A stretch of 64,000 nucleotides of DNA, from positions 558,001 through 622,000 of the forward strand of contig NSKG01000002.1 of assembly GCA_002287035.1 (NCBI GenBank), read 5' to 3'. Made by a program: the position numbers and the translations under genes. This document shows positions 10,999-14,508 of the stretch, one piece after another. The notes below the pieces were generated by a model that was not told the DNA's origin, searched no databases, and saw only the letters and a list, made by a program, of their open reading frames with translations. The DNA comes from Pseudomonas sp. WN033. GTDB taxonomy: Bacteria; Pseudomonadota; Gammaproteobacteria; Pseudomonadales; Pseudomonadaceae. How positions within the stretch are numbered: position 1 is the first letter of the stretch; each line of letters opens with the position of its first letter.

Positions 10999-11244
10999 AT
11001 GACTCACTTTGAATGGATTCTTATCTACGGATTAAACAGCCTGTTCTGGAAATGGATCATCAGTTGGGGTGGTGCAAACTGGGTTGAAGGCTGGAAGTCC
11101 TGGTTTCTTGTCAGTGTGCTCGCGCCAAGGTGGAGCGCTGAAGGCATAAGGCTTTTTGCCGTTACCGTATGGTTTTTCACTACGCTCTGGTTCATCGCCG
11201 GGCTGTTCAATGACAACGTGCGCAATTCTAACTTTTTACTTTAA
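10999..11244 (+). CDS. Small hydrophobic membrane protein
   Basis: An 81-residue protein with two likely membrane helices (about residues 5-25 and 50-70), rich in Trp and Phe. No family recognised. Its neighbours are the PLP enzyme 37 bp upstream and the truncated peptidase copy downstream. A weak ribosome binding site and short length make it a modest call, but the hydrophobic pattern is not what a random frame gives. Confidence 0.5.
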   Translation: MTHFEWILIYGLNSLFWKWIISWGGANWVEGWKSWFLVSVLAPRWSAEGIRLFAVTVWFFTTLWFIAGLFNDNVRNSNFLL

Positions 11245-11299
11245 AAATCAATTTTATAGAGCCAGCAGGCACCAGCCAATTGTCGAGCAGAGAAATTTG

Positions 11300-11486
11300 A
11301 GGAGCCAATCCGTGCATAAACCGGTAGTACAGGAAGAAGTCACAGGGTGCGGGATTGCATCGGTGGCCAATATCCTTGGCAAAACCTATGCAGAGATGAA
11401 AGCCATTGCCAACGCCATGGGCATTCATGCCTCGGATACCTCGCTGTGGTCAGATACCCAGTATGTTCGTCGCCTGCTGTCCAGCG
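11300..11486 (+). repeat. 187-bp perfect direct repeat, copy 1 (truncated peptidase 5' end)
   Basis: Identical base for base to 13292-13478, at an offset of 1,992 bp. It holds the ribosome binding site, the GTG start and the first 58 codons of the C39-like gene. Flanking bases on both sides differ, so the limits are sharp. Confidence 0.97.
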
Positions 11487-11542
11487 TCGAGCCCTGGAGA
11501 CCCCTGCGGTCGAAAACAGCGGTACTCCAGCGTCGGTCATGA
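11312..11542 (+). pseudogene. Truncated copy of the C39-like cysteine peptidase gene
   Basis: The first 58 codons match the intact gene at 13304 exactly, including the catalytic Cys13 region, then the frame runs into unrelated sequence and stops after 76 codons. The His and Asp parts of the active site are lost, so the product cannot be a working peptidase. It probably arose by the duplication that also brought in the block between the two copies. It keeps its ribosome binding site (AGGAG) and could still be translated. Confidence 0.85.
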
Positions 11543-12298: not shown

Positions 12299-12378
12299 TG
12301 GTTTACCCTCGCACAACGCGGAGCTAGAATTCAAGTCCGCGGCTGCACATGAAACTCTGTCAATTCTTGAGAGACATA

Positions 12379-12810
12379 ATGATTGTAGAAAGTGTGCTTC
12401 CTGAAAATTACGCAGAAATGCTTGATGTTTGGGAAAATTCAGTCCGGGCAACGCATGACTTCATTACAGAAGAAGACATTGAGTTCTTTAAACCAATTAT
12501 CATTGAACAGGCTTTTCCTGCGGTCACGCTGAAGTGTATTAAAGATGATGGCGGTTCAATCTTGGGTTTTGTGGGCGTCCACGACTCCAAGGTAGAAATG
12601 CTATTCATCTCAAATACCGACAGAGGAAAAGGCATTGGTAAAGTTTTATTGCGTTACGCAATCGAACAGTTAGACGCTACCAAAGTTGACGTGAACGAGC
12701 AAAATCCATTAGCGGTAGGCTTTTACAAGCATATGGGTTTTACAGTTGTTTCTCGCTCACCACTCGATGATATGGGTAAACCCTTTCCAATTCTGCATAT
12801 GACGCTCTAA
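12379..12810 (+). CDS. GNAT-family N-acetyltransferase (YjaB-like)
   Basis: A 143-residue acetyltransferase with the acetyl-CoA loop SNTDRGKGIGKVLLRYAI (about residues 75-92) and the C-terminal block VDVNEQNPLAVGFYKHMGF typical of YjaB-type enzymes. I prefer the ATG at 12379, with GAGAG upstream, over the in-frame ATG at 12349. Strikingly AT-rich against the neighbouring core genes. A strong terminator follows 33 bp later. Substrate unknown. Confidence 0.8.
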   Translation: MIVESVLPENYAEMLDVWENSVRATHDFITEEDIEFFKPIIIEQAFPAVTLKCIKDDGGSILGFVGVHDSKVEMLFISNTDRGKGIGKVLLRYAIEQLDATKVDVNEQNPLAVGFYKHMGFTVVSRSPLDDMGKPFPILHMTL

Positions 12811-12926: not shown

Positions 12927-13292
12927 ATGAAGGTCAAACGCATCGTCTACAACATTGCCACTGCTACCCCCTCAGAAGCCGAGAGCTTCTATTCCGATAT
13001 TTTTGGGCTTGACGTGGTGATGGATCATGGCTGGATAAGAACCTACAGTTCAGGCGAGAAAATGACTACGCAGCTAAGCGTGGCTTCGGAGGGTGGTTCT
13101 GGTACACCGGTTCCCGACCTTTCCATAGAGGTTGATTGCCTGGAAACAGCATTGGAGCGCGTGAAGAACGCGAACATCAAGATTGAATACGGGCCAGCAA
13201 GCGAGCCATGGGGTGTCCGCCGGTTCTATGTTCGCGATCCTTTTGGGAAGCTTGTTAATGTATTGCAGCATGTGGATTACAGGGCAGTTTAA
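12927..13292 (+). CDS. VOC-family (glyoxalase-like) protein
   Basis: A 121-residue protein of the vicinal-oxygen-chelate fold, with paired beta-alpha-beta-beta-beta units: an N-terminal block ending in AESFYSDIFGLDVV and a C-terminal block RFYVRDPFGKLVNVLQH. An AGGGAGG ribosome binding site precedes the ATG. The first metal His of glyoxalases is not evident (Asn9 in VYNIA), so catalysis and substrate are open. Its stop codon sits at the start of the second 187-bp repeat, one base into it. Confidence 0.75.
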   Translation: MKVKRIVYNIATATPSEAESFYSDIFGLDVVMDHGWIRTYSSGEKMTTQLSVASEGGSGTPVPDLSIEVDCLETALERVKNANIKIEYGPASEPWGVRRFYVRDPFGKLVNVLQHVDYRAV

Positions 13293-13478
13293 GGAGCCAA
13301 TCCGTGCATAAACCGGTAGTACAGGAAGAAGTCACAGGGTGCGGGATTGCATCGGTGGCCAATATCCTTGGCAAAACCTATGCAGAGATGAAAGCCATTG
13401 CCAACGCCATGGGCATTCATGCCTCGGATACCTCGCTGTGGTCAGATACCCAGTATGTTCGTCGCCTGCTGTCCAGCG
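13292..13478 (+). repeat. 187-bp perfect direct repeat, copy 2 (in the intact peptidase gene)
   Basis: Second copy of the repeat at 11300-11486. Here it runs on in frame into the complete gene, so this is the original copy or the restored junction. Confidence 0.97.
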
Positions 13479-13720
13479 CCGGGGTTGAAACCTCCAGGGA
13501 TGAAATTCCGTTTGATAGCTGGGAGACATTGCCGGATCTGGCGTTGCTGTCTATCAAGCATCATCAGGAAGACGGCAAGAACTTCTGGCATTGGGTTGTG
13601 TTCAAGCGCATCGATGGTCAGCCCTTGGTGCTGGATTCGGCCAGTTACCTGCCTTCCAATGTGCGCCAGGATTTTGAGGCCATGCAGCCCAAGTGGTTTA
13701 TCGAGATCAGCAATGCATGA
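13304..13720 (+). CDS. C39-like papain-fold cysteine peptidase domain protein
   Basis: A 138-residue stand-alone peptidase-like domain. C13 (VTGCGIASVA) with Q7 upstream as oxyanion-hole candidate, H96 (FWHWVVF) and D111 (VLDSAS) give a C39-type catalytic set in the right order. It has no signal peptide, no ABC transporter and no bacteriocin-like substrate nearby, so it is not an ordinary bacteriocin-processing exporter. GTG start with AGGAG upstream. Its 5' end is duplicated at 11300. Function unknown; proteolysis or deamidation are both possible. Confidence 0.72.
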   Translation: MHKPVVQEEVTGCGIASVANILGKTYAEMKAIANAMGIHASDTSLWSDTQYVRRLLSSAGVETSRDEIPFDSWETLPDLALLSIKHHQEDGKNFWHWVVFKRIDGQPLVLDSASYLPSNVRQDFEAMQPKWFIEISNA

Positions 13721-13817
13721 CGGCTTGGCTTAGGCGCAGCGCTGCTCCGCCAAACCTACCCTTCCCTACTGCAAACCGCTAGAATGCACGCCGCACGCAG
13801 CCATGGTGGCTGTGGCA

Positions 13818-13850
13818 ATGGGTTCCCTCACCCCATTTGATTCAAAAAGG
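13818..13850 (+). promoter_or_regulatory. Candidate preQ1-I riboswitch over the yhhQ ribosome binding site
   Basis: P1 stem ATGGG (13818-13822) pairs with CCCAT (13832-13836). The loop TTCCCTCA is followed by the C at 13831, placed where the ligand-pairing cytosine sits in preQ1-I aptamers. Then comes an A-rich strand ending in AAAAAGGA, which can pair back to the loop (UCC or CCU with GGA or AGG) as the pseudoknot. The layout is close to the short T. tengcongensis aptamer as I recall it. The AAGGA it would hide is the Shine-Dalgarno sequence 6 bp before the yhhQ ATG, so ligand binding should lower translation of a queuosine-precursor transporter. A possible -10 hexamer TAGAAT is at 13780. 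Confidence 0.72.
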
Positions 13851-13857
13851 ACATCAC

Positions 13858-14508
13858 ATGCCGCTGATTCCCGTATCGGTCAACCGACAGGTTGTGGCCG
13901 GTCTTGTTGCTTTTCACATTCTTATCATCATTGCCAGCAACTACCTGGTGCAGTTGCCGATCACGCTGTTCGGCTGGCATACCACCTGGGGCGCGTTCAG
14001 CTTCCCGTTTATCTTTCTGGCGACCGACCTGAGTGTCCGGCTGATGGGCAAAAGTGTTGCCCGACGGGTGATTGCCAGGGTCATGTTGCCGGCGCTGGTG
14101 GCATCCTATGTGGTGTCGGTGCTGTTCCATGACGGACGCTTTGGCGGGCTGGCGGCGCTGGGCGAGTTCAATGGCTTTGTGTTTCGCATCGCGCTGGCCA
14201 GTTTCCTGGCCTATGCCTTGGGGCAGTTGCTGGATGTGCAGGTGTTCGACCGCCTGCGCGGGTTGCGCCAGTGGTGGGTGGCGCCGGCAGCTTCGACCGT
14301 GCTGGGCAATCTGCTGGATACCTATCTGTTCTTCTCGGTGGCTTTCTGGCAGAGCAGTGATCCGTTCATGGCTGCCAACTGGGTGGAGATTGCCACGGTT
14401 GATTATGTGATCAAGCTGGCGATCAGCATGGCGTTGTTCGTGCCGCTGTACGGGATGTTGCTCAATGCCATTGTGCGGATGGTGCCGGGTCGGCCGGTGA
14501 CACAGTAA
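13858..14508 (+). CDS. yhhQ: Queuosine precursor transporter YhhQ
   Basis: A 216-residue inner-membrane protein of the COG1738/ECF-like family that imports preQ0/preQ1 for queuosine tRNA modification. About six hydrophobic helices are visible, with the family motifs PFIFLATDLSVRLMGK and LGNLLDTYLFFSVAF. I chose the ATG at 13858 because AAGGA lies 6 bp upstream; the in-frame codon at 13837 falls within the aptamer. It marks the return from the accessory island to core genome. Likely controlled by the riboswitch candidate. Confidence 0.9.
   Translation: MPLIPVSVNRQVVAGLVAFHILIIIASNYLVQLPITLFGWHTTWGAFSFPFIFLATDLSVRLMGKSVARRVIARVMLPALVASYVVSVLFHDGRFGGLAALGEFNGFVFRIALASFLAYALGQLLDVQVFDRLRGLRQWWVAPAASTVLGNLLDTYLFFSVAFWQSSDPFMAANWVEIATVDYVIKLAISMALFVPLYGMLLNAIVRMVPGRPVTQ

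Follow-up and report, generated by a model that had tools for sequence, protein, structure and literature searches.

A probable class I type III preQ1 riboswitch in the yhhQ leader of Pseudomonas sp. WN033 and its variant forms in the Pseudomonadaceae

The yhhQ locus and its leader

The locus considered here lies in a 64,000-nucleotide stretch of the genome of Pseudomonas sp. WN033 (contig NSKG01000002.1, positions 558,001 to 622,000). This whole stretch is called the window, and positions are counted from its first letter. On the forward strand, which carries all of the leader features described below, positions 13858..14508 encode YhhQ, a transporter of 216 aa for the queuosine precursors preQ0 and preQ1. 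A first-pass annotation of the DNA had named this gene as the target of a riboswitch, and the reading frame matches NCBIfam NF008406 with 336 bits, where the cut-off is 252; TIGR00697 is likewise above cut-off. The nearest named yhhQ locus (L021, from a genome with the genus name Halopseudomonas) encodes a protein of 91% identity. As QueF and QueC both have matches above cut-off in the window's genome, the organism should make preQ1 on its own.

Further upstream, the window contains a direct repeat of 202 nt whose copies (11288-11489 and 13280-13481, 1992 nt apart) are 98% identical. The second copy starts an open reading frame at 13304-13720, and the first lies within another (11156-11542) that ends differently. 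Two more frames are found between the repeats, one GNAT-like (12349-12810) and one glyoxalase-like (12927-13292), both by eye, the latter having no NCBIfam match. The repeat region could be a duplicated gene cassette.

The leader of yhhQ in the window reads CAATGGGTTCCCTCACCCCATTTGATTCAAAAAGGACATCACATG, and the ATG of the gene begins at 13858. Immediately 5' of yhhQ is an element of 33 bases spanning 13818-13850. The first-pass annotation had its start exactly right, while its end at 13858 overshot the Shine-Dalgarno (SD) sequence and reached the first base of the ATG. The element opens with the 5' strand of a stem, P1 (AUGGG, 13818..13822), which pairs with the 3' strand CCCAU (13832..13836). 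In DNA letters this is ATGGG/CCCAT, with A13818-G13822 opposite C13832-U13836; these 5 bp could be extended by a sixth pair, A13817-U13837. Between the strands is a loop of 9 nt, UUCCCUCAC (13823..13831; also written TTCCCTCAC), assigned from its identity with the E. coli leader and from the covariance-model alignment described below. The last base of the loop, C13831, is a ligand-type (specificity) cytosine, and the CCU at 13826-13828 would act as an anti-SD, a role assigned after PMC10622847. P1 is followed by a linker, L3 (UUGAUUC, 13837..13843), that differs in length and sequence among relatives, and then by the A-rich tail and SD, AAAAAGGA (13844..13851). Here A13844-A13848 open the tail AAAAAGG and lead into G13849-G13850-A13851 of the SD; the part of the tail in a pseudoknot is again assigned after PMC10622847. 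The 5-bp stem, the cytosine and the A-rich tail were thus read correctly in the first pass. By complementarity alone and without covariation, a second helix, P2, is possible between C13826-C13827-U13828 and A13848-G13849-G13850. The window has a single copy of the core GGTTCCCTNACC, compared with a mean of 0.02 in shuffled sequence (2 of 100 shuffles had one).

A candidate -10 element, TAGAAT, is located at 13780..13785, which would place the start of transcription a few nucleotides downstream. Of the leaders of the best 80 of 366 yhhQ relatives, 64 have the same hexamer at most 75 nt ahead of the loop. A scan for sigma-70 promoters and terminators returned no full promoter, so that the -10 status of TAGAAT is inferred only. 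The scan also returned no terminator, and a transcription-termination platform was therefore set aside.

Probable assignment to type III

The first-pass annotation had likened the leader to the aptamer of T. tengcongensis, a class I type II riboswitch that forms an H-type pseudoknot of about 33 nt with an AC motif and with its SD partly in P2. The window element resembles it in length and in the AC motif, and also in its predicted pseudoknot and placement of the SD. Another class I subtype, type III, was reportedly defined by McCown et al. in 2014, and the layout fits this subtype. In the description of PMC10622847 and PMC11625349, the P1 5' strand of type III members is followed by UU and the loop is short and rich in pyrimidines; AC comes ahead of the P1 3' strand, and an A-rich tail is present with an AAGG SD that lies within the pseudoknot. 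These members are almost exclusively gamma-proteobacterial and control yhhQ. Compared with T. tengcongensis type II, the type III loop is shorter and pyrimidine-rich, and more of the SD is buried (PMC10622847, PMC11625349).

All type III sequence features of this literature consensus are present in the window. P1 has the length of 5-6 bp, and UU stands right after its 5' strand in the short pyrimidine-rich loop (UUCCCUCAC, 9 nt; consensus of PMC11625349). AC with the specificity cytosine (A13830-C13831) precedes the P1 3' strand, and the A-rich tail runs into the AAGG of an SD that can pair with the loop (AAAAAGGA; complementarity only). The element is positioned before yhhQ in a gamma-proteobacterium, and it is recognized by a covariance model built from other members (40.7 bits). 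The AC before the P1 3' strand is common to types II and III and so fits both; the longer loop without UU or a pyrimidine run that marks type II (PMC10622847, PMC11625349) is not what is found in the window, with its loop of 9 nt. One-to-one binding of preQ1 and translational repression also belong to the definition of type III, and for the window these would follow by analogy.

The closest match is the yhhQ leader of E. coli K-12, whose loop and tail are letter-identical to those of the window (TGGGTTCCCTCACCCCA ... TCAAAAAGG). The two have in common the P1 core TGGG/CCCA, the loop UUCCCUCAC, the AC before the P1 3' strand, an SD formed by the AAAAAGG tail and the same gene downstream. They differ in the fifth and sixth P1 pairs (AU, AU in the window; UA, AU in E. 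coli) and in the linker, which is UUGAUUC in the window and GGUUAAUC in E. coli (PMC10622847). The E. coli leader is the source of a preQ1-bound crystal structure, obtained from a construct with a shortened linker; its 36-nt RNA binds preQ1 with a KD of about 58 nM and the riboswitch shows strong switching in live E. coli (PMC10622847). The 33-base piece of the WN033 leader is thus very probably a preQ1-sensing switch of the kind solved in E. coli.

The nature of the ligand deserves consideration, as YhhQ carries preQ0 and a preference for preQ0 has been reported (PMC10622847). It might be supposed from this that the element is a related riboswitch answering mainly to preQ0 rather than preQ1. 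However, the E. coli element, with its identical loop, is about 138-fold weaker for preQ0 than for preQ1 (PMC10622847), and a switch tuned to preQ0 is very unlikely.

Covariance-model searches

The first-pass annotation had proposed a search of the leader with the preQ1 covariance models of Rfam. The family cited for class I is RF00522 (PreQ1; PMC11625349), and it gave no match in the window, either at its gathering score of 39 bits or at E values up to 10. The weak Rfam matches near the leader, to snoRNA and lncRNA families, are without meaning here. Throughout 38 related genomes RF00522 remained below its cut-off, and none of the listed weak matches was at a known yhhQ site (by eye). At E up to 10, no match was obtained for the yhhQ leader of E. 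coli K-12 (L101:2998-3598) either. The model of Rfam 15 therefore leaves both of the tested type III leaders undetected, that of E. coli and that of the window (13500-14100). Since it misses the E. coli leader as well, its silence at the window carries little weight, and type III may be under-annotated as a consequence.

A second model, R1, was built from seven leaders outside the Pseudomonadaceae, namely that of E. coli and those of six other members of the class. R1 recovers the element with 40.7 bits (E 1.2e-8) as its sole match in the window at E up to 10, and as the sole reported match at E <= 1 in the whole genome (E 8e-7; 150 of 245 first-look candidates scored). Among the 38 relatives, 25 were matched at E <= 1. 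Twenty of these belong to the window's genus, the window included, and all 20 matches lie at yhhQ (coordinates compared by eye); five genomes of the genus that have no yhhQ match (G001, G012, G014, G015, G024) gave no R1 match either. The remaining five matched genomes are from other families of the order. Two of their matches, in G030 (E 7.7e-5) and G025 (weak, 0.16), are upstream of a YhhQ-like reading frame, and three further ones have E values of 0.21 to 0.95. In 274 genomes of the class, 13 were matched at E <= 0.1. The seven with E < 1e-4 are all linked to yhhQ (the six training members and the window), and of the six weak matches the two inspected, G110 and G082, both lack the AAAAAGG tail.

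Conservation of the loop and covariation of P1

For comparison of the leaders, the best 80 of 366 yhhQ relatives were picked by protein similarity, the motif playing no part in the choice. The core was present at all 80 loci, as was the core together with the tail, and all 80 leaders have GGTTCCCT and an AAAAAGG-type tail. Among 177 motif-fitting leaders the loop ends in AC in 175 and in GC in two, although the filter itself demands A or G followed by C.

The paired bases behave differently from the loop. P1 was evaluated over all 59 distinct segments with 500 shuffles. Paired cells amounted to 91.9%, compared with 86.0% in shuffles, and cells changed on both sides numbered 17 against 3.2. The covariation score was 0.187, a value reached by none of the 500 shuffles (0.081 +/- 0.013), and structures slid out of register scored lower (<= 0.132). 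The outermost pair is AU in 36 segments, GC in 4, UA in 4, CG in 2 and something else in 13, so that 13 of the 59 are unpaired at this position; the second is UA in 44, CG in 5, UG in 3 and other in 7. The number of pair types does not exceed that of the shuffles (261 of 500 were as high), and 20 of 500 shuffles matched the real segments in the number of pairs altered on both sides. A count over 39 hand-picked segments of the 59 led to the same conclusion as the full one: P1 covaries as an RNA stem. Such covariation, together with a model match, is what the first-pass annotation had named as support. For a refutation it had asked jointly for the absence of any covariance-model match, which is true of RF00522 and not of R1, and for close relatives that have lost the P1 pairing or the conserved cytosine; no such loss was seen.

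These data bear on the possibility that the element is a plain GC-rich hairpin beside the SD that affects translation without a ligand, its conservation reflecting mRNA structure only. P1 is indeed short and stable, and the fold of the window by itself is unremarkable. The leader has no unusual stability (z -0.32), its minimum free energy structure slides P1 by one register and pairs C13831, and the centroid has P1 as drawn. A bare hairpin would nevertheless be expected to show the reverse pattern of conservation. In the 80 leaders it is the unpaired loop that is best conserved, whereas the arms of P1 vary with compensation, and loop and tail correspond to those of a structurally solved RNA that binds its ligand. 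A hairpin without a ligand is accordingly highly improbable.

The bases of P2 hardly vary, which leaves P1 as the only helix that can be tested by covariation; the pseudoknot is argued from the structure of the E. coli element. The proposal of the first pass that a pseudoknot hides the SD is thus favored by identity with E. coli and not by covariation.

Distribution in the family and the class

In a sample of 198 genomes of the family, yhhQ was matched in 135 and the exact motif was found in 123, all of them among the 135. The motif copies total 128, of which 124 are on the same strand as yhhQ and 7-40 nt before its match. The other four lie elsewhere; a reversed-pattern control also had four matches (by eye), and these copies are taken as chance. 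Twelve genomes with yhhQ lack the exact motif. Nine of them carry an expanded form with a hairpin in the linker, G325 has an altered loop with an additional C, G439 retains only the C-terminal portion of yhhQ, and in G312 no element was found within the 351 nt examined. Variant forms included, the element stands before yhhQ in 133 of the 135 genomes. The view that such an aptamer would be exceptional in a relative of Pseudomonas is hence abandoned: with the exact motif in 123 of 135 yhhQ-bearing genomes and variants in nine plus one, the element is not exceptional in the Pseudomonadaceae. In one genus (g251), five leaders (L198-L200, L213, L214) have P1 as AUGG/CCAU and one additional loop C, with the register shifted.

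At the level of the class, yhhQ was matched in 14 of 274 genomes. The element is present in seven and was not found in the other seven, from which it follows that yhhQ does not need it. The element is common in the class and not universal.

Predicted accessory hairpins in the leader

The compact element may not always stand alone. In the window, a 5' accessory hairpin predicted from the leader fold (13793..13816, core CGCAGCCA/UGGCUGUG) adjoins P1; E. coli has no comparable support for one (z 0.48). Over 129 distinct segments the mean z for this hairpin is -0.79, whereas 140 control segments from farther upstream average -0.01. For the window alone the value is not significant (z -1.27, p 0.095), and many single segments have z > -0.5, E. 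coli being among those without a signal; moreover, the segments share ancestry. These segments are 30 nt long and come almost entirely from Pseudomonadaceae; as a raw count, the fold has its last paired base 0-3 nt before P1 in 113 of the 129. A 5' hairpin often adjoins P1 in the family, although the signal is weak. In many Pseudomonadaceae yhhQ leaders it is GC-rich, near the presumed start of transcription and variable in sequence. Two roles for it were considered and rejected by eye, both from relatives: competition with P1 through CCAU/AUGG, as CCAT is absent in many of them, and an upstream reading frame from a conserved ATG in the hairpin, as the ATG is not kept in many of them.

A different expansion is found in nine genomes of the window's genus (leaders L160, L164-L168 and L170-L172). 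There the loop and the tail stand 39-43 nt apart, whereas the remaining 168 of the 177 leaders have a spacing of 7-15 nt, and in all nine the insert between P1 and the SD tail folds into a hairpin of 10-11 bp. Compared with the window, these leaders have the SD 27-31 nt farther out from the loop, and 8-10 linker bases stay free, close to the E. coli linker of 8. In the upper stem all 51 cells are paired (8 rows with four distinct stems, which are few and related). With the stems aligned from the base, which was our choice, variation is seen in pairs 3 to 6 (GC/AU/GU, GC/AU, CG/UA/GU and CG/GC), so that compensatory changes are present in the linker hairpin of these genomes. In some variants, ACGAT on the 5' side of P1 could form an outer stem with ATCGT ahead of the SD. 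In the predicted fold this ATCGT contributes to the base of the inserted hairpin, and that fold is preferred as it leaves the normal path of the pseudoknot.

The nine variants have a second, near-SD tail, AAAACGG or AACAACGG, at the usual distance. R1 matches those variants on which it was run over 36 nt, covering the near tail and not the true SD. On a bolder reading, the aptamer of these leaders may fold at the near tail and act on the true SD from afar. No linker hairpin appears in the excerpts of PMC10622847 and PMC11625349 covered here.

The spacing also bears on whether the motif could be DNA rather than RNA, an operator conserved for the binding of a transcription factor. Strong conservation of the loop and tail sequence would suit an operator. 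Against this, 124 of the 128 copies in the family are oriented by strand 7-40 nt before the yhhQ match, the arms of P1 covary as RNA pairs and the spacing from loop to tail ranges from 7 to 43 nt; the chance that the motif is an operator seems negligible.

Proposed mechanism and implications

The original suggestion of a class I preQ1 riboswitch is upheld by the identity of loop and tail with E. coli, the match to R1, the association with yhhQ and the covariation of P1. Positions 13818-13850 very probably form a preQ1 riboswitch of class I, type III, that controls the translation of yhhQ. Binding of preQ1, the pseudoknot and translational repression are inferred from the E. coli relative. By that analogy, the leader would fold into the P1 hairpin and, when preQ1 is abundant, the ligand would stack on P1 and pair with C13831. 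The A-rich tail would then fold back along P1, with the first adenines of the SD touching the ligand and the ceiling of the pocket, and AGG of the SD would pair with CCU of the loop. This would bury the ribosome-binding site and lower the synthesis of YhhQ. When preQ1 is scarce, the tail would be free, YhhQ would be made and the precursor imported. Given the capacity of the organism for its own preQ1 synthesis (QueF, QueC), the switch would lower import when synthesis suffices.

The element itself is a genuine but ordinary representative of a known family, and a riboswitch type known from E. coli is now documented in the Pseudomonadaceae with family-wide counts. The part likeliest to interest specialists is the expanded forms in relatives. 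The evidence is evenly poised on whether type III extends beyond one compact form, with a 5' hairpin often present in Pseudomonadaceae and a linker hairpin in a subgroup of the genus. Both hairpins may tune the speed of folding, the stability of the mRNA or the response to the ligand. If type III does extend in this way, compact and expanded aptamers upstream of one and the same gene could be compared within a single genus. The sister genomes with the linker hairpin provide a natural experiment on the distance over which the SD of an H-type pseudoknot riboswitch can be displaced.
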